This document shows, in pieces, positions 53,620 to 62,623 of a stretch of DNA of 64,000 bases (position 1 is its first letter; each line of letters starts with the position of its first letter). Location of the stretch: positions 248,001 through 312,000 of the forward strand of contig NZ_RJUK01000002.1 in NCBI RefSeq assembly GCF_003762925.1. The letters run 5' to 3'. The position numbers and the translations under genes are program-made. This stretch comes from Marinimicrobium koreense. GTDB taxonomy: Bacteria; Pseudomonadota; Gammaproteobacteria; Pseudomonadales; Cellvibrionaceae. A model generated the notes under the pieces. It did no database searches. It saw only the letters and a program-made list of their open reading frames with translations, and was not told where the DNA came from.

Positions 53620-56600
53620 CTACTCTTCGCCATCCAGGGTTCGGATGTAGGTGACGACATCCTTTAAGGCCTGCTCATCCGGCAGGGTGTTGGCGAAGGT
53701 GGCCATTTGCTGGCCGAGCGGGTCGCGGGGGTCGCTGCCGCGGGCGCCGGAGCGGTAGTTCTGCAATTGGTTCAGCAGGTACCAGTCCGCCTGAACGGCG
53801 AGCGCTGGGGCGCCGAGTTCGCGATTGCCCTGACCTTGGACACCGTGGCATGAGGCACAGACGGCGTAATGCTGCTCACCGGCGCTCGCGTTGCCTTCGA
53901 CGGTGGCAACGGTTTCCCGTCTTTCCAGCTCGCTCAGGTAGCGCGACAGGTCGGCGATCGGACGAATGGGCTCTGACTCGCTTTTCAGAAACTCGAGCGC
54001 CGCACGCATCGACATACCATTCGGGTCCCGGAAGTGGGTGCCGCGCACACCGGCGTGGAATTTCTGCAACTGGGCCTGTGCATACCAGTTCTCGATGCCC
54101 GCGATGGGGGGTGCCGCCTGAGCGCGATCGCCGCCGGCGTCGCCACCATGGCAGCCTGCGCAGTGCTGCTGGTAAAGCGTCTCCCCTTTGGAGGCGCTAC
54201 TCCACTGCCGGAAGCTCGGTTCGAAACCGTGTTTTTTGTGATACTCGGCATAGGCCTCTTCTTCGACTTGCTCGAAGTTCAGGTCCAACCCGGGAGATCG
54301 CAGTTTGAGGGCCATCTGCGATTCGCTGTCCAGCTCGTCAACCACCGTTTGAAAAGCGGCCAGCTCGGCATCGCTGGGCTCTGCGCCGCGCTCGCGCCAG
54401 AGATCCAGCACTGCCAGACTCATCAACCCGAGGCGTCCGGCGGGCAGCGTCGTCCAGCCCTTCAGAGTGTCGGTCAGATCGTCCGCTTCCTCAGCCAGAA
54501 AACGTTTGGCCAGCAGGTACTCGGGCGTGCGTTCGGGGCTTTCAAAGTTTTCCAGAAAGCGACCCTGCACGGTAATGTCCGAATCATTCAACGCCTGCCA
54601 GTAATAAGTGTCGTTATTCAACGCCGCGAGACTGAACGCCTGAGCGCTCCACTCATCGACCGGCAGCTCGGTGCGCAAACGCAACAACTGCTCGCCAGCC
54701 TGATCCGATGGGGCACGCTCGGACAGAGCCAACATTGCCCAAAGCCGTGCGCGCGGTTCTTCATCGTCAAGAGACTCGGACGCCAGCGCCAGATCCGCAG
54801 GCGTGGCGCTTTCGACCAATGCCTGTACCGCGTTCTTGCGGGTGGCGCCGGAAGGATGGTGCAAGGCGTTACGTACGGCCGTGTCCGACGCCTCGTCGGT
54901 GACGGTAAACGCGCCCAGGCCATGTAACGTCCAGATGGCATGAATCGAAGCCACATCCAGGCCCAGTGAATCACGATCCGGGTTGCCGGTCAGTATGGCA
55001 CGCAAGGCCGGTATGGCATCGGTGCGCTGTTCGGTGACCAACAGGCGCTGGGCGGTCATGCGCCAGAACATGTTGTCGTTGGACAGGGTATCCACCAATG
55101 TTTCAGTGTCGGCATCGCTCAGATCCAACGGCTCATACTCGGGCGCGTCTTTGGCCACCAACCGGTATATCCGGCCCCGCTCCCGGTCCCGCAGCGGGTT
55201 GACGTGGGCATTACCTTTACCTTCTTCGGCATCAAAACCCGCCGATTCTTTGGACGGAATCGGGTTGTGCTGGATGATGAAGTTGTACCAGTCGGCAACC
55301 CACAAGTGGCCGTCGGGGCCCACGTCCATCTGCACCGGCGAGAGCCACTCATCGGTACTGCTCAGAATCGAGCCACGGTTTTTGGCTTTGTACCCGACGC
55401 TATCGGGTTGCGCGTCGATAAAAAACTGACCGAGCAGATGTGCGGTGGGCTCGCCCATAAAGGCGCCGCGATTCCAGAATTTTTCCGGGAAGGTTCGCGC
55501 CGTGTAGAGGCTCAGCCCGGAACCGGCGGTGTAGCGGCCGTGAAAGTCCACCTGGAGGAAGTTATAGGTAGAGGGGAAGATGTTGGGAAAGTCGTAAGCC
55601 TGGGCCGCCAGCCCGGGAACCACGTCTTCATCTTTACCGTAAACGTAGCTGCGCCACAAAGGCACGTGGAAAACCGGCGCATTATTGGCGGTGGAGCCGA
55701 ACACCTCGAAGTCTTCACTGAACGACAGGCCCCAGGTGTTGTTATTGAACTGGCCGATCGGCTCGATATCGGTGCCATCCAGGTTCATCCGGTAGACGCC
55801 ATTCTGGAAGGATTCACCGTTTTCATCTTCCGGTGCTTCAGAGTAGCCGACCGCGCCCCAAAGGCGATTGTCGTGGCCGTATTTCAGGTTCGATGGCCCG
55901 GCGTGAGTGTCCCGGGTGCCCCATCCGGTGTTGAGCACTTCGCGTACATCGGCCTTGCCATCGCCATCGGTGTCTTTCAGAAACAGGAAGTCCGGCGCCT
56001 GGGATACCACAAAACCGCCGTTGAGCGGGGTGATGCTGGTCGGCACGCTCAGCTCGTCGGCAAACACTTCGCAGCCATTGGCCCGGCCGTCGCCGTCGGT
56101 ATCGACACACATACTGATACGATCATTGCCTCGGCCGTCTTCCGCCTGATTGTTGGGGTAGTCGACGGACTCCAGTACGAACAGGCGGCCCTGCTCATCC
56201 CAGGTAAAGGCGATGGGGTTGACGATATCCGGCTCACTGACAAACAACTGCAGCTCAAAGCCTTCCGGCACCATGGTCAGGGCCATGGAGTCTTCCACGC
56301 TGAACGCTTTCTGGAATTTGGGGGCTGGCTCAATACGACGGTAGTTGGGAATGGTACCCGCTTCTTCATAGGAGGCTTCGGGCAAGGTTTCTACCAGCGC
56401 GCGGTTGGCTTCACGCTTTTCCTCGCCCACAGCCCAGAGGATGCCACGAATCAGCAGGTCGTGAAATTCAGGCTGACCCCAGGTGCGCTCGTCGTGACCA
56501 TAGGCGGTGTAGAACACCCGGCCTTCACCCTGCTCACGGGTCCAGGTCCAGGGCTCTTCCTCACGCTGCATCAGCACGGTACGGTTTTCTTCGTTGTGAT

Positions 56601-57189
56601 CGGCGTGAACGTAGGTTTCATCCCAGGTTTCAAAGGTCTGAAAACCTTTCATGATCGGATGGTTTTCCTGCCCGGGTACGATGGTCGCGGTGAACTCACC
56701 GGCTCCATGACTCTTGAAGCGCCCACCGACCAGGTCGACAAAGGCGTCGGAGTGACCGAAGCAGGCGCTGGCACTGTGGACGGGCAGGAACGCCCCACCC
56801 TCTTCCACGAAACTCAGCAGTGCCTCTTCCCGCTCGGGGGACAGTTCGTTGTAGTTGGCGTACAACATGACCGCATCCACATCGGCCAGCCCCTCTTCGC
56901 TCAACCGATCCAGATCTTCCACATACTCCATAAAGATCTTTTCACGGCCCAGAGACTGATTGAACAGGGGCGCGTTGCGGTAGGACATGTGAATGCCATC
57001 GCCTTCGCGGTGGCCATGACCAATGAACAGCAGATTGATCACGCCGTCTTGCGACGCCTCAGTATTGCTGGCGACCGATGCATCGCGATCGTCGCTTGAG
57101 CAACCGATGGTCGGCAGCAACAACGCCGACAGGATGACCGTTCCCAGCCGGGACCGCCACGCAGCCCATTGTCGTTCGAATTTATTCAT
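53620..57189 (-). CDS. ThuA / PVC-type propeller / HEAT / di-heme cytochrome c lipoprotein
   Basis: An 1189-residue lipoprotein (lipobox TIGC near residue 30). In order: a ThuA-like glutamine-amidotransferase-fold domain (about 50-260: LLFIGHGHREGDGIHMSYRN); a glucose/sorbosone-dehydrogenase-like propeller of the PVC type (about 300-680: VPEGFELQLFVSEPDIVNP, DTDGDGKADVREVL); HEAT-like helices (about 690-950); and two cytochrome c domains with CxxCH at about residues 1010 (CAGCH) and 1109 (CASCH). It is predicted to oxidise a sugar or related compound in the periplasm and pass electrons through the hemes. This architecture is common in Planctomycetes, Verrucomicrobia and Bacteroidetes, and less so in gammaproteobacteria. 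Confidence 0.9.
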   Translation of the reverse strand: MNKFERQWAAWRSRLGTVILSALLLPTIGCSSDDRDASVASNTEASQDGVINLLFIGHGHREGDGIHMSYRNAPLFNQSLGREKIFMEYVEDLDRLSEEGLADVDAVMLYANYNELSPEREEALLSFVEEGGAFLPVHSASACFGHSDAFVDLVGGRFKSHGAGEFTATIVPGQENHPIMKGFQTFETWDETYVHADHNEENRTVLMQREEEPWTWTREQGEGRVFYTAYGHDERTWGQPEFHDLLIRGILWAVGEEKREANRALVETLPEASYEEAGTIPNYRRIEPAPKFQKAFSVEDSMALTMVPEGFELQLFVSEPDIVNPIAFTWDEQGRLFVLESVDYPNNQAEDGRGNDRISMCVDTDGDGRANGCEVFADELSVPTSITPLNGGFVVSQAPDFLFLKDTDGDGKADVREVLNTGWGTRDTHAGPSNLKYGHDNRLWGAVGYSEAPEDENGESFQNGVYRMNLDGTDIEPIGQFNNNTWGLSFSEDFEVFGSTANNAPVFHVPLWRSYVYGKDEDVVPGLAAQAYDFPNIFPSTYNFLQVDFHGRYTAGSGLSLYTARTFPEKFWNRGAFMGEPTAHLLGQFFIDAQPDSVGYKAKNRGSILSSTDEWLSPVQMDVGPDGHLWVADWYNFIIQHNPIPSKESAGFDAEEGKGNAHVNPLRDRERGRIYRLVAKDAPEYEPLDLSDADTETLVDTLSNDNMFWRMTAQRLLVTEQRTDAIPALRAILTGNPDRDSLGLDVASIHAIWTLHGLGAFTVTDEASDTAVRNALHHPSGATRKNAVQALVESATPADLALASESLDDEEPRARLWAMLALSERAPSDQAGEQLLRLRTELPVDEWSAQAFSLAALNNDTYYWQALNDSDITVQGRFLENFESPERTPEYLLAKRFLAEEADDLTDTLKGWTTLPAGRLGLMSLAVLDLWRERGAEPSDAELAAFQTVVDELDSESQMALKLRSPGLDLNFEQVEEEAYAEYHKKHGFEPSFRQWSSASKGETLYQQHCAGCHGGDAGGDRAQAAPPIAGIENWYAQAQLQKFHAGVRGTHFRDPNGMSMRAALEFLKSESEPIRPIADLSRYLSELERRETVATVEGNASAGEQHYAVCASCHGVQGQGNRELGAPALAVQADWYLLNQLQNYRSGARGSDPRDPLGQQMATFANTLPDEQALKDVVTYIRTLDGEE

Positions 57190-57297
57190 ATTATTACCGC
57201 TATTTCACAGTGTTGGTATCTGGCTGCCCGGCGTTTGACCACCGCCGGGCAAGCCGGTCTCTATGGATTATTGTTTTTCTGGGTTCTCGATGAGGCG

Positions 57298-58428
57298 CTA
57301 CTCCACCTCAAGCGCAAACGCCGGCATGGTTTTCACTTCGCCACCGGCCATGGCGGATTCGTGGGCCAGAATACCCACACAGGTAATGTTGGCGGACTCC
57401 ACCACATTGGGGTAGGCGTTGTAGCCTTCGAGCACGGCGCGGATAAAGTTGTGCACCAGGTGCGGGTGAGAACCGCCGTGACCACCACCCTGGGTGAAGC
57501 TCAGGTGTTCGTGCTCTTCATCGTACACACCCTGACCGGTGAAGGACTGAATTTCTTCCGGCAACAGGTGAGCGTAATCCGGCACCTTGACGCGCTCGGG
57601 CACTTCCGGCTCGGGTTTGCCCCGGGTGTGCATGACCGGATCTTCACCTTCAATCAACGGCCACTCATAGGATTTCTCTGAACCGTACACATCGAAGCTC
57701 TCGCGATATTGGCGGGCGGTGTCGTACAGGGAGCGATAGATGCGGGCGCCCACGTCCGAGTCCTGCATCTGGATGTGGCAGGATTCGATGGCGAAGGGCG
57801 AGCCGTAAATGCCGGCAAACTCGTCACGGATTTTACCGGAACCGATGCACTGCACCTGGCTGGCCAGCTTGCGCTGCAAACCGAGCACTGGACCGACGCA
57901 ATGCGTGGCGTAGTGCATGGGCGGCATCCCCTCCCAATAGCTGGGCCAACCGTCCATATCCTGCTGGTGACTCGCCTGCAGGAACTGGATGCGCCCCAGA
58001 TCGCCACGGTCGTACATTTCCTTCACAAACAGATACTCGCGGCTGTAAACCACGGTTTCCATCATCATGTAAACCTTGCCGCTGGCTTTGGTGGCTTTCA
58101 CGATGCGCTCACAATCTTCCACGCTGGTGGCCATCGGAACCGTACAGGCCACATGCTTGCCCGCTTCCAGGGCCATGATGCTGTGCTTGGCGTGATCGCC
58201 AATCGGGGTGTTGATGTGCACCGCGTCCACATTGGGGTCGGCCAGCATGTCTTCATAGGTGGTGTAGCGTCCGCCGGCGGGCACATCGAACTTGTCCGCC
58301 AGCTCGTTGAGGCTCGCTTCATTGCGCTGGCACAGGGCCACGACTTCGGCATTCGGGTGCGCCTGATAAATGGGGATGAACTCGGCACCAAAGCCCAGTC
58401 CGACCAGTCCTACTTTCAACTTGCTCAT
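57298..58428 (-). CDS. Gfo/Idh/MocA-family oxidoreductase lacking the EKP lysine
   Basis: A 376-residue NAD(P)-dependent oxidoreductase. The N-terminal Rossmann fold has the dinucleotide loop VGLVGLGFGAEF (about 6-17) and INTPIGDHAKHSIMALEAGKHV, followed by CTVPMATS where the family usually reads CEKPxA; the catalytic-type lysine position is Val97. The C-terminal alpha/beta domain follows (about 125-350, DRGDLGRIQFLQ). Gfo/Idh/MocA enzymes oxidise or reduce sugar hydroxyls and may also act on 3-keto sugars. The ATG at 58428 is chosen for its AGGAG spacing. It lies between the PVC lipoprotein and the epimerase-like gene. Confidence 0.92.
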   Translation of the reverse strand: MSKLKVGLVGLGFGAEFIPIYQAHPNAEVVALCQRNEASLNELADKFDVPAGGRYTTYEDMLADPNVDAVHINTPIGDHAKHSIMALEAGKHVACTVPMATSVEDCERIVKATKASGKVYMMMETVVYSREYLFVKEMYDRGDLGRIQFLQASHQQDMDGWPSYWEGMPPMHYATHCVGPVLGLQRKLASQVQCIGSGKIRDEFAGIYGSPFAIESCHIQMQDSDVGARIYRSLYDTARQYRESFDVYGSEKSYEWPLIEGEDPVMHTRGKPEPEVPERVKVPDYAHLLPEEIQSFTGQGVYDEEHEHLSFTQGGGHGGSHPHLVHNFIRAVLEGYNAYPNVVESANITCVGILAHESAMAGGEVKTMPAFALEVE

Positions 58429-58508
58429 AATCACTCTCCTGTCTAATGCTGTTACTCAGAATGTCGTTGCAAATTCGTCATGCGCCGAGTGGTTTCAACC
58501 TGAACCTT

Positions 58509-58535
58509 CAGGTGCGCTTCGCTTACCTGACCTAC
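58509..58535. repeat. REP-like palindrome
   Basis: CAGGTGCGCTTCGCTTACCTG followed by ACCTAC, spoken here as CAGGTGCGC / GCTTACCTG around TTC. The layout and the trailing CCTAC resemble the elements at 40274 and 53513, but the outer stem differs (AGGT in place of GGAT). It lies between two same-strand genes. Confidence 0.65.
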
Positions 58536-58583
58536 GCGGCGCGGATTGCTCGTTCTCTTTAACGTAGCGTCAGGTCATCAGAA

Positions 58584-59435
58584 TCAGATGTGTGCCCACC
58601 AGTCGCGCAGGAAGGCGATCCCCCGGCGGGCGAATTCGTCCTGGCTGGGAGCAAAGCGGCGCCAGATGCATACCGCCTCGGCGAGACTGGACGCGTCCGG
58701 TGAAAAGCTCTCGATCGACAGTTTGCCGTCATAGCCCACGCTGCGCAGCCCCTCGCGCAGCCCGGCCCAGTCGCTGTTGCCCTCGCCGGGAACACCCCGG
58801 TGACTGTCGGACACCTGCACATGCACCAACTGGTCACCGCACTGACGGACCGCGTCGCGGAAATCGGTTTCTTCGATATTCATATGAAAGCTGTCCAGGG
58901 CGATGCCCAGATGCGGGCTGTGCACATCGGCCAGCATGCGCTGGGCGTCGGCCACAGTGCAGACCATATCGGTCTCGAACCGGTTGAGCGGCTCAAGGCC
59001 CAGCCGGACGCCGTGTTCACCGGCGGTGCGGGACAATTCTGTGAGGCTGGCGACGGACCGCTCCCACTCCGCCTGACGCAGCGCCTCGGTCGACAATCTT
59101 GGCTTGGCAACGGGGGCGTACAGGGGGCCGACCAGTACCTCCGATTCCAGGCCCTCGGCCAGTTTCAGGCAGGAACCGAAGTAATCGAGGGCTTTTCGCC
59201 GAATGGCCGGGTCTTCGGCGCTCAGGTCGCGCTCGCCCACCACCGCCGTACAGACCACCGCATCGAGGCCCAGATCACGCAGCACGGGCCGAAGTTCATC
59301 CACCGCATAGTGCTCGGGGTCTTCAACCGGAAACTCGACAAAGTCGAAGCCCATACCGGCGATCTTCTCCAGAAGCTCCACCTGATCACTGGTAAAGGGC
59401 GATGTCCAAAGCCAGGTGCTGGCGCCAAATTGCAT
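58584..59435 (-). CDS. Sugar isomerase/epimerase TIM-barrel protein (Hyi / tagatose-3-epimerase-like)
   Basis: A 283-residue AP-endonuclease-2-like TIM barrel. The metal-binding set can be placed from family spacing: E148 (LGLEPLNRFETD), D181 (GIALDSFHMNIEE), Q207 (LVHVQVSDSHRG) and E242 (LSIESF). D-tagatose/psicose 3-epimerases normally have His at the third place, while hydroxypyruvate isomerase (Hyi) has Gln, so this enzyme has mixed features. It should act on a ketose or keto-acid in the cytosol. The ATG at 59435 has GGGGAG at good distance; an ATG five codons earlier has none. It is in the same direction as the Gfo/Idh/MocA gene, about 155 bases upstream of it. Confidence 0.88.
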   Translation of the reverse strand: MQFGASTWLWTSPFTSDQVELLEKIAGMGFDFVEFPVEDPEHYAVDELRPVLRDLGLDAVVCTAVVGERDLSAEDPAIRRKALDYFGSCLKLAEGLESEVLVGPLYAPVAKPRLSTEALRQAEWERSVASLTELSRTAGEHGVRLGLEPLNRFETDMVCTVADAQRMLADVHSPHLGIALDSFHMNIEETDFRDAVRQCGDQLVHVQVSDSHRGVPGEGNSDWAGLREGLRSVGYDGKLSIESFSPDASSLAEAVCIWRRFAPSQDEFARRGIAFLRDWWAHI

Positions 59436-59537
59436 AGCGGTACTCCCCATTCATTAGATTTATTACTGGGACTCATGCTAGCGCTATTGAACAGCCGCGG
59501 CTTGTACCTTGTCGTAAAAAAATTGTATTATTTCGAC

Positions 59538-60278
59538 ATGAAAGAACTGGACCCCTGGCTTGCTCAGCTCGACCCCCGATACTCCGCAGGGCGGATTTTC
59601 GAGTTTATGCCGAGCGTGCTCTACTTCGTCAAAGACCGCGAAGGGCACATCATGACGGGCAACCAGGCCTTTGCCGAGCGCTGCGGCTGCGCTTCCGCCG
59701 ACGAGCTGTACGGCCGCCGGGATGACACTCTGTTTCCGCTGTATATGGTGGAAAAATTTCGGCGCGATGATGCGACCGTTTTTGCGACCGCCGAGCCGCT
59801 GCACGATCTGATTGAGCTTTTCCCGACCCGCGAGGGCCTACCGGAGTGGTGCGTCACCCACAAGGTGCCGCTGTTCGACCGCGAAGGCGGTGTGGTCGGG
59901 CTGTGCGGTATCGTGCAAAGCTACGAGCGCATGCACGATCACCCCGAGCTGCCGGTTTTTAAAGTGGTGGAACACATCCGCTCTCACTACGCCCAGCGCT
60001 TGAACATCCCCGAGATTGCCGAACAGTTCGGCTTTTCCCAGCGCCAGCTGGAGCGACGCTTTATGGAGACCTTTGGGGCGAGCCCGCGGGAGTATATTAT
60101 CCGACTGCGGATCCTGATCGCCTGCGAGCACCTGCGCACGAGCAAGGCCCCCATTTCCGATGTGGCGCTGGACTGCGGGTTTTACGATCACAGCAGCTTC
60201 ATTCGCCACTTCAAACGGATGCTGGGCGCGACGCCGCTGGCTTATCGCAAGCACCACAATGGATCCGCCGCACTGTAA
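59538..60278 (+). CDS. PAS-domain AraC-family transcriptional regulator
   Basis: A 246-residue regulator with an N-terminal PAS domain (about 20-135: FEFMPSVLYFVKDREGHI, TGNQAFAERCG, CVTHKVPLFDREGGVVGL) and a C-terminal AraC double helix-turn-helix (about 148-243: LNIPEIAEQFGFSQRQLERR, ISDVALDCGFYDHSSFIRHF). Most AraC sugar regulators have a cupin sensor; a PAS sensor suggests a different ligand or a redox/oxygen signal. I chose the ATG at 59538 where the PAS domain begins; an in-frame ATG at 59475 adds a hydrophobic stretch. It is divergent from the epimerase gene and likely controls the 53620-59435 set. Confidence 0.88.
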   Translation: MKELDPWLAQLDPRYSAGRIFEFMPSVLYFVKDREGHIMTGNQAFAERCGCASADELYGRRDDTLFPLYMVEKFRRDDATVFATAEPLHDLIELFPTREGLPEWCVTHKVPLFDREGGVVGLCGIVQSYERMHDHPELPVFKVVEHIRSHYAQRLNIPEIAEQFGFSQRQLERRFMETFGASPREYIIRLRILIACEHLRTSKAPISDVALDCGFYDHSSFIRHFKRMLGATPLAYRKHHNGSAAL

Positions 60279-61168: not shown

Positions 61169-62623
61169 TTGTCAGACCCGGTATCGAACACTCAACTTGC
61201 CACTCGCTTTCCCGGCCTGGATCGCCCCTTGGCGATCGTGGACATTGAAACCACCGGCGGCAGTGTGACCCGCGACCGCATTACCGAGATCGGCATAGTC
61301 GAGGTGGATAAAGACGGTGTCCGTGAGTGGAGTACCCTCATCAACCCGGGCATGGCCATCCCGCCGACCATTCAACGCTTTACTGGGATCACCGATGCGA
61401 TGGTGGCCGACGCGCCGCGCTTTGAGCAGGTGGCGAAGGCCATCTTTCAGCGCCTGGAAGGAAAGGTGTTTGTGGCGCACAACGTCCGCTTTGATTACGG
61501 CTTCCTGCACAATGCCTTTGCTTCGCTGGGCTTTCCGCTCTCGCTGGAGCTGCTCTGTACCGTTAAACTGTCCCGGGCACTGTATCCGGAACATCGTCGT
61601 CACAGTCTCGAGACAATCATCCAGCGCTTCGGGATTGAAACCGATGCCCGTCACCGCGCCCTGGCGGATGCCCGGGCGACCTATACATTTCTGTGCCGAG
61701 CCGCAGCCGACCGATCACCCGAATCGTTTATGCAGGCCGTTCTGGTGCAGACGCGACGCCCCAGCATTCCACCGGGGCTGGACCCCGCCTGCCTGGATCA
61801 GTTACCGAATGGGCCCGGCGTGTACTATTTTTACGGCGAGAACGATAGCCTACTGTATGTTGGCAAAAGCGTGGACGTACGCAAGCGGGTTCTGTCCCAC
61901 TTTACCGCCGACCGCGCCTCGGCCCGCGGCATGGCGATGTGTCAGCAGGTACGGGACATTCAGGTGCAGTCCACCACCGGGGAGCTGAGCGCGCTGTTGC
62001 TCGAAGCCAAGGAGATCAAGACCCGGCAGCCGCTGTTCAATCGTCGGCTGCGCAGAGTCAGCACGCTGTACACCCTGCAGCTGCATGAAGACACTGAAGG
62101 CGTGCTGCGACCGGAGATCATCGAGGCACCATCGGCCTCCCGCGATCGGCGTATGCACGGTCTGTTTCCGTCAAAAAAGAAAGCGCGCAACGCGCTGATT
62201 GATACCGGAAAACAATTCGGCTTATGCGATCACGTCATCATCACACCCGCACCGCTTAATGGCCCCTGCATGGGGCGTCAACTGAAACACTGCAAGGGGC
62301 TGTGCACCGGGGACTGGTCAGCGGCGCAACACAATGTGAGCCTGATGGACGCGCTCGGCAGCCTCGCGCTGAAAGCCTGGCCCTACCCTGGACCCGCAGC
62401 GCTGATTGAATATCGGAATCCGGACGATGAAGCGTCGCCCTACACACTGTTCCTGCTGGATAACTGGTGTGTTCTGGCAACGCTGACGGGACATGGCGAG
62501 CCGGATTGGGAGACGCTCGTGGAGACGCCCACCGACATCGGTTTGCTGGATAAAGACATCTACCGCTATCTGCTCCGGGTTGTCTTCAAACCACCTCGCG
62601 AAGTCCGGCTGGTGGGACTGTGA
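61169..62623 (+). CDS. DnaQ-like exonuclease fused to GIY-YIG nuclease (Cho-like)
   Basis: A 484-residue DNA-processing protein. Residues about 20-185 form a DnaQ/RNase-T-type DEDD 3'-5' exonuclease: VDIETTGG (D25, E27), VAHNVRFDYGFL and HRALADARATY. Residues about 207-290 form a UvrC/Cho-type GIY-YIG nuclease (GPGVYYFYGENDSLLYVGKS, VRKRVLSHF). The C-terminal 190 residues resemble the Cho-side region with HCKGLCTGD. Fusions of this kind are known in bacteria and may make and trim incisions in UvrABC-type repair. The start is a TTG at 61169 behind GGAGG. Confidence 0.9.
   Translation: MSDPVSNTQLATRFPGLDRPLAIVDIETTGGSVTRDRITEIGIVEVDKDGVREWSTLINPGMAIPPTIQRFTGITDAMVADAPRFEQVAKAIFQRLEGKVFVAHNVRFDYGFLHNAFASLGFPLSLELLCTVKLSRALYPEHRRHSLETIIQRFGIETDARHRALADARATYTFLCRAAADRSPESFMQAVLVQTRRPSIPPGLDPACLDQLPNGPGVYYFYGENDSLLYVGKSVDVRKRVLSHFTADRASARGMAMCQQVRDIQVQSTTGELSALLLEAKEIKTRQPLFNRRLRRVSTLYTLQLHEDTEGVLRPEIIEAPSASRDRRMHGLFPSKKKARNALIDTGKQFGLCDHVIITPAPLNGPCMGRQLKHCKGLCTGDWSAAQHNVSLMDALGSLALKAWPYPGPAALIEYRNPDDEASPYTLFLLDNWCVLATLTGHGEPDWETLVETPTDIGLLDKDIYRYLLRVVFKPPREVRLVGL

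Follow-up and report, generated by a model that had tools for sequence, protein, structure and literature searches.

A conserved four-gene set in Marinimicrobium koreense built around a ThuA–DUF7133 protein with an interchangeable electron-carrier tail, a candidate periplasmic sugar oxidation module

Four neighbouring genes in a 64,000-nucleotide stretch of the Marinimicrobium koreense genome (the window, taken at its full length) form a real, repeatedly conserved unit, encoding an exported protein in which ThuA, DUF7133 and diheme cytochrome c domains are joined, a Gfo/Idh/MocA protein (Gfo), an epimerase-like protein and a divergently transcribed PAS–AraC regulator. The preferred reading, held at a probability of about 0.55, is that of a horizontally acquired catabolic module in which the exported enzyme would oxidise a plant-glycan sugar and the cytosolic pair would process the product. 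The unit as originally predicted is upheld by domain matches and homologues, with three gene starts re-set from the sequence and its homologues. Transcription on the minus strand runs from a ketose-3-epimerase-like TIM barrel (D-tagatose-3-epimerase-like, 283 aa; 58584–59435, within ORF 58584–59450, where homologues begin at Met 59435), through Gfo (376 aa; 57298–58428, within ORF 57298–58434, where ATG 58428 is favoured by a ribosome-binding site and by homologues), to the ThuA–DUF7133 protein (1189 aa; 53620–57189); the PAS_4–AraC gene (246 aa; 59538–60278) lies on the plus strand and starts at 59538, the listed ORF having started at 58800.

Among the 144 genomes in the window's family, Gfo was detected in 12, the window's own genome counted (E<=1e-40), and in the same 12 the large ThuA–DUF7133 protein adjoins it; 16 family genomes passed the cut-off for the large protein, the four beyond the carriers being partial matches. 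Since order and orientation of all four genes are identical in each of the 11 other family carriers, they are not a chance set; the flanks vary, being shared by the window and one sister genome and partly by one more. In one fragmented assembly (G024) the large gene is broken into two reading frames close to unread bases, possibly an assembly artefact. The spacer between the epimerase-like and Gfo genes (58429–58583) exceeds that of two sister genomes by ~100 bp and contains an imperfect inverted repeat (58508–58530), which was ruled out as a dispersed element by its single copy in the genome. Elsewhere in the window, positions 61169–62623 encode a DnaQ-type exonuclease fused to a GIY-YIG nuclease resembling Cho/UvrC.

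Within the exported protein, a ThuA domain (residues 66–253; 56431–56994, minus strand; PF06283, 122.5 bits) is followed by DUF7133 (residues 297–681; 55147–56301, minus strand; PF23500, 353.8 bits against a cut-off of 27), a HEAT match slightly below its cut-off (26.4 against 27.7), and a diheme cytochrome c tail (about residues 986–1189; 53623–54234, minus strand) with CxxCH motifs at 1010 and 1111. The ‘PVC-type heme-binding CxxCH protein’ model TIGR02604 is matched at 220 bits, over its cut-off of 122.2; the PVC heme domain TIGR02603 scores 20.3, under its cut-off of 68.15. A periplasmic heme lipoprotein had been proposed here, of which the export and the two heme motifs stand, and the lipoprotein assignment is moderately supported: the N-terminus carries LPTIGC as a lipobox candidate, better lipoboxes are present in three relatives (L033, L035, L036), and the large proteins of two more (L041 and L043) have a signal peptide in which a lipobox was looked for and none found. 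A second ThuA fusion of 829 aa, to a GSDH propeller and cytochrome c, occurs in the same genome (contig C1, L049:9694–12183), and beside the module copy in L035 a stand-alone ThuA gene is accompanied by a GMC oxidoreductase gene (L035:14422–17350), possibly another sugar oxidation set.

The strongest functional argument comes from the C-terminus. Nearly all ThuA–DUF7133 relatives outside the window's family lack CxxCH, featuring a cupredoxin at this end instead: tails of 62 ThuA–DUF7133 proteins comprised 46 azurin-like, 11 two-heme, one one-heme, three truncated and one of neither type, and those of nine DUF7133 proteins without a ThuA match comprised seven one-heme, one azurin-like and one of neither type. 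A copper-ligand pattern, QHN ... C-T-F-P-G-H-x4, is visible in the azurin-like tails; among six relatives scanned, PF00127 was matched over its cut-off in four (L058, L068, L108, L101), PF13473 below its cut-off in one (L093) and cytochrome c in one (L103), and the azurin model TIGR02695 was matched, below its cut-off, by two proteins. The L103 protein is the Verrucomicrobiota ThuA–DUF7133 protein with the one-heme tail; it shares 46% identity with the window protein over residues 48–847, beyond which there is just a weak cytochrome match. Two other family genomes encode stand-alone diheme cytochromes similar to the diheme tail of the window protein (48 and 41% identity), the gene for one adjoining a flavin oxidase gene and that for the other a TonB receptor gene. 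The same C-terminal position is thus taken by two unrelated one-electron carriers, a diheme cytochrome in the window's family and azurin-like copper in most relatives, which implies that the remainder of the protein gives off electrons, and this swap of cytochrome for blue copper is strong, indirect support for electron donation by DUF7133. Neither the swap nor the altered epimerase residue described below was part of the original prediction, both having been found in this analysis. Azurin genes have been reported in Bacteroidetes and Verrucomicrobia, with ThuA not mentioned in the available part of that paper (PMC8779525).

When 71 DUF7133 rows were compared, profile against profile, with 17 family GSDH (PF07995) sequences, to which the domain is thereby related, the probability was 96.8% (local) and 98.8% (global), against 0.3% or less for reversed-alignment and ThuA-alignment controls; the window protein itself gave no direct Pfam match to GSDH (PF07995). 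His429 (DTHAGPSNL; codon 55903–55905, minus strand) aligns with a GSDH histidine that we take to be catalytic, and a histidine stands at this place in 71/71 DUF7133 rows, a distant Ketogulonicigenium protein included. Tail swap, profile homology and invariant histidine together argue that DUF7133 is a redox enzyme, which lends the predicted oxidising role of the exported protein strong indirect support as far as a redox role is concerned. It is accordingly improbable that DUF7133 is a non-catalytic periplasmic sugar-binding or sensing protein merely carrying an electron-transfer domain; other carbohydrate-binding-like domains do occur in relatives and we know of no activity for DUF7133, but the exchange of unrelated carriers and the GSDH homology with its invariant histidine speak against such a role. 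Structure predictions made from 12 close relatives reached a mean pLDDT of 48.6 for Gfo and 39.5 for DUF7133.

As to the cofactor of a redox-active DUF7133, PqqE was over its cut-off in 0/12 carriers, and PqqC was matched in 0/12 carriers and likewise in none of the control genomes, so that PQQ would come from outside, or the cofactor differs. Membrane-bound sorbosone dehydrogenases are described as PQQ-dependent in the available part of PMC9171043. On a Ketogulonicigenium vulgare plasmid (L051:3470–6220), a DUF7133 ‘dehydrogenase’ gene adjoins a separate c-type cytochrome gene; its identity as L-sorbosone dehydrogenase was suspected and dropped, the literature found tying the gene to no activity.

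Both putative cytosolic partners carry altered active-site motifs. Gfo, in which no signal peptide was seen, has a clear Rossmann domain (PF01408, 90.5 bits against a cut-off of 24), and was rightly singled out as odd: the EKP motif present in DgpA, GFOR and E. coli YcjS reads TVP (58135–58143, minus strand), valine replacing the EKP lysine, in 92/92 Gfo rows, the patterns used to scan for relatives not having included this stretch. A GH109-like role for Gfo was also considered as a possibility, on the basis of sequence motifs. The epimerase-like protein, in which no signal peptide was seen either, matches 3vyl over its whole length (141 bits) and scores 172.2 on the D-psicose 3-epimerase equivalog NF051856, under the cut-off of 300. 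Glutamine (codon 58815–58817, minus strand, placed by alignment) replaces the histidine of solved ketose 3-epimerases and YcjR, presumably a metal ligand in the former, in 52/55 epimerase-like rows; the other metal-site residues of E-D-H-E (E, D and E) are kept in 55/55, and the histidine itself is kept in three loci devoid of a ThuA–DUF7133 protein (L057, L075, L121). On these alignments the Gfo and epimerase-like substitutions are conserved changes, not decay; they make the cytosolic chemistry testable, and might mean that the two proteins catalyse another reaction than that proposed.

These substitutions bear directly on a 3-ketoglycoside route, a quite possible alternative in which the exported enzyme would oxidise a glycoside at C3, cleavage would fall to ThuA or a separate hydrolase, Gfo would reduce the resulting 3-keto sugar, and C4 or C3 would be corrected by the epimerase-like protein. 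ThuA/ThuB are, we assume, linked to 3-ketotrehalose; the 3-keto-disaccharide hydrolase family PF06439 is present in 12/12 carriers; and YcjR, annotated as 3-dehydro-D-guloside 4-epimerase, shares 39% identity over 114 residues with the epimerase-like protein. Set against this, Gfo is without the EKP lysine that YcjS has, glutamine stands where YcjR has histidine, and the BT_2158 and BT_2159 models score 33.5 and 32.9 against cut-offs of 750 and 650. Precedent for such a route is offered by lactose use in Caulobacter, which, in the available part of PMC9007349, needs a periplasmic 3-dehydrogenase, a transporter, two epimerases and a reductase. Within the window's own genome, seven PF06439 matches were counted, some in frames over 1100 codons.

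The set had been described as uncommon in this class of bacteria and as resembling gene groups of Planctomycetes and Bacteroidetes, and its distribution agrees on both counts. Beyond the 12 family carriers, Gfo was found in 0/368 genomes of an even class sample outside the family; Paraglaciecola algarum (L108), outside that sample, has it. A contig scan yielded 543 Gfo relatives, of which the best 80 by Gfo similarity were kept, so that counts lean to close relatives; two of these (L052 and L053) duplicate family genomes (G062 and G053), and were excluded from the tail counts, the three trees and the locus census, being included in the 92 Gfo and 71 DUF7133 rows. The 78 outside loci that result (Gfo identity 63–72%) belong to Bacteroidota (53), Verrucomicrobiota (15), Planctomycetota (5) and others (5). 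ThuA–DUF7133 is encoded in 50 of them, on the same strand as Gfo in 49/50, the epimerase-like gene in 45 and both in 39; in seven the DUF7133 protein lacks a ThuA match, and DUF7133 is absent from 21. Where at least 4.5 kb was available on each side (47 loci), the corresponding counts were 38 for ThuA–DUF7133, 32 for the epimerase-like gene and 31 for both.

Plain vertical ancestry, which would have spoken against transfer, was not seen in trees built by a quick method, with family Gfo and ThuA–DUF7133 placed beside Verrucomicrobiota. The Gfo tree places the family in one clade (100), grouped with three Verrucomicrobiota (98); the ThuA–DUF7133 tree (tails left out; L059 and L067, both truncated, and short-match rows excluded) groups it with two heme-bearing Verrucomicrobiota (98), some branches being long; and the epimerase-like tree (L067 and L096 excluded), which has no Verrucomicrobiota rows, has one family clade (99) inside a mostly Bacteroidota half. 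Horizontal transfer of the module into the window's family is thus likely on these phylogenies. Because 0/15 Verrucomicrobiota loci have the epimerase-like gene, no single donor is apparent for all of the genes, and the module may combine more than one origin. Paraglaciecola, whose tail is of the azurin type, falls with Bacteroidota in the trees, which points to the module having entered Gammaproteobacteria a second time.

Neighbouring genes give a hint of the substrate, pointing to xylan or other plant glycans, from Pfam scans that took in chosen genes (one scan covering 75 of 301 listed neighbours). GH11 xylanase genes adjoin the module in 3/11 family loci, one of them cut by a contig end; L036, L041 and L108 have esterases nearby, of BD-FAE, tannase/feruloyl or carboxylesterase type; GH95 is found near L033 and L108; and, speaking against xylan, GH31, sulfatase, alpha-galactosidase and GH125 genes occur as well. 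XylA-type genes occur in three other loci, the protein exceeding its NCBIfam cut-off in L075, the sole locus tested, and XylR-type regulators in four. Among the scanned flanks of the window itself (LysR, pirin, YcaC, TonB and exonuclease genes) no glycan gene was seen, and xylan-derived sugars are ranked first with low confidence. A rather unlikely division of roles would place Gfo and the epimerase-like protein in a xylose-type pentose route and have the exported protein oxidise some other glycan-released compound. It draws on two loci, L057 and L075, where Gfo and a histidine-bearing epimerase-like protein lie beside XylA-type and FGGY-type genes without ThuA–DUF7133, and on the four loci where the XylR-type regulator adjoins Gfo; it sits poorly with the tight same-strand linkage of Gfo and ThuA–DUF7133 across phyla, and with the glutamine form of the epimerase going with ThuA–DUF7133 loci.

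Control by the divergent PAS–AraC regulator, also foreseen, gains a plausible target in a conserved 36-bp intergenic block (59503–59538, plus strand), which reaches the regulator start codon and in which two TNYCG elements are set 21 bp apart. The block occurs once per genome in 12/12 carriers, and zero times in a backward control; both elements become CCG in three close relatives, and a similar block lies upstream of the PAS–AraC gene in a Verrucomicrobiia locus (L054). It is read as a candidate operator and promoter of the regulator; a scan for consensus promoters at the block returned no match.

In the preferred reading of an acquired catabolic module, the DUF7133 propeller would act in the periplasm, oxidising a hydroxyl group on a sugar or glycoside derived from plant glycans, with electrons passing to its own diheme tail and onwards to the respiratory chain; the oxidised glycoside would be bound or cleaved by the ThuA domain; the keto product would enter the cell, where Gfo and the epimerase-like protein would convert it to an ordinary sugar; and PAS–AraC would sense a ligand or redox state, switching the operon at the 36-bp block. 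More tentatively, ThuA–DUF7133 could represent an undescribed class of periplasmic glycoside oxidoreductases with a modular outlet (diheme cytochrome, monoheme cytochrome or azurin-type copper), whose Gfo and epimerase-like partners use undescribed chemistry. DUF7133 is annotated as a domain of unknown function, and the tail swap gives a large protein family a testable role; the module points to a plant-glycan oxidation route that may be common to several phyla.

A limited set of papers was searched and nothing in it was recognised as this module; judged by the features tested, its parts fall outside the BT_2158/BT_2159 models, the canonical ketose 3-epimerases and PF07995 itself. D-tagatose and L-ribulose 3-epimerases (3vyl, 2ou4) are similar over the whole length, whereas the epimerase-like protein has glutamine for the metal-site histidine. 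TIGR02604 PVC-type proteins include the window protein by score; the module's tail, however, is of another diheme type, and azurin-like in most linked relatives. GSDH and DUF7133 are homologous by profile across the propeller and have the invariant histidine in common; the window protein adds ThuA and the electron-carrier fusion. The E. coli YcjQ/R/S system (glycoside 3-dehydrogenase and 4-epimerase) likewise has a pair of Gfo and TIM-barrel epimerase, from which the module differs by TVP for EKP, glutamine for the metal-site histidine and an extra exported dehydrogenase-like protein. Caulobacter LacABC, as described in the available part of PMC9007349, combines genes for periplasmic oxidation, an epimerase and a reductase as the module does, whereas subunits of the LacABC type described there were not found in the module, which has ThuA–DUF7133 in their place.
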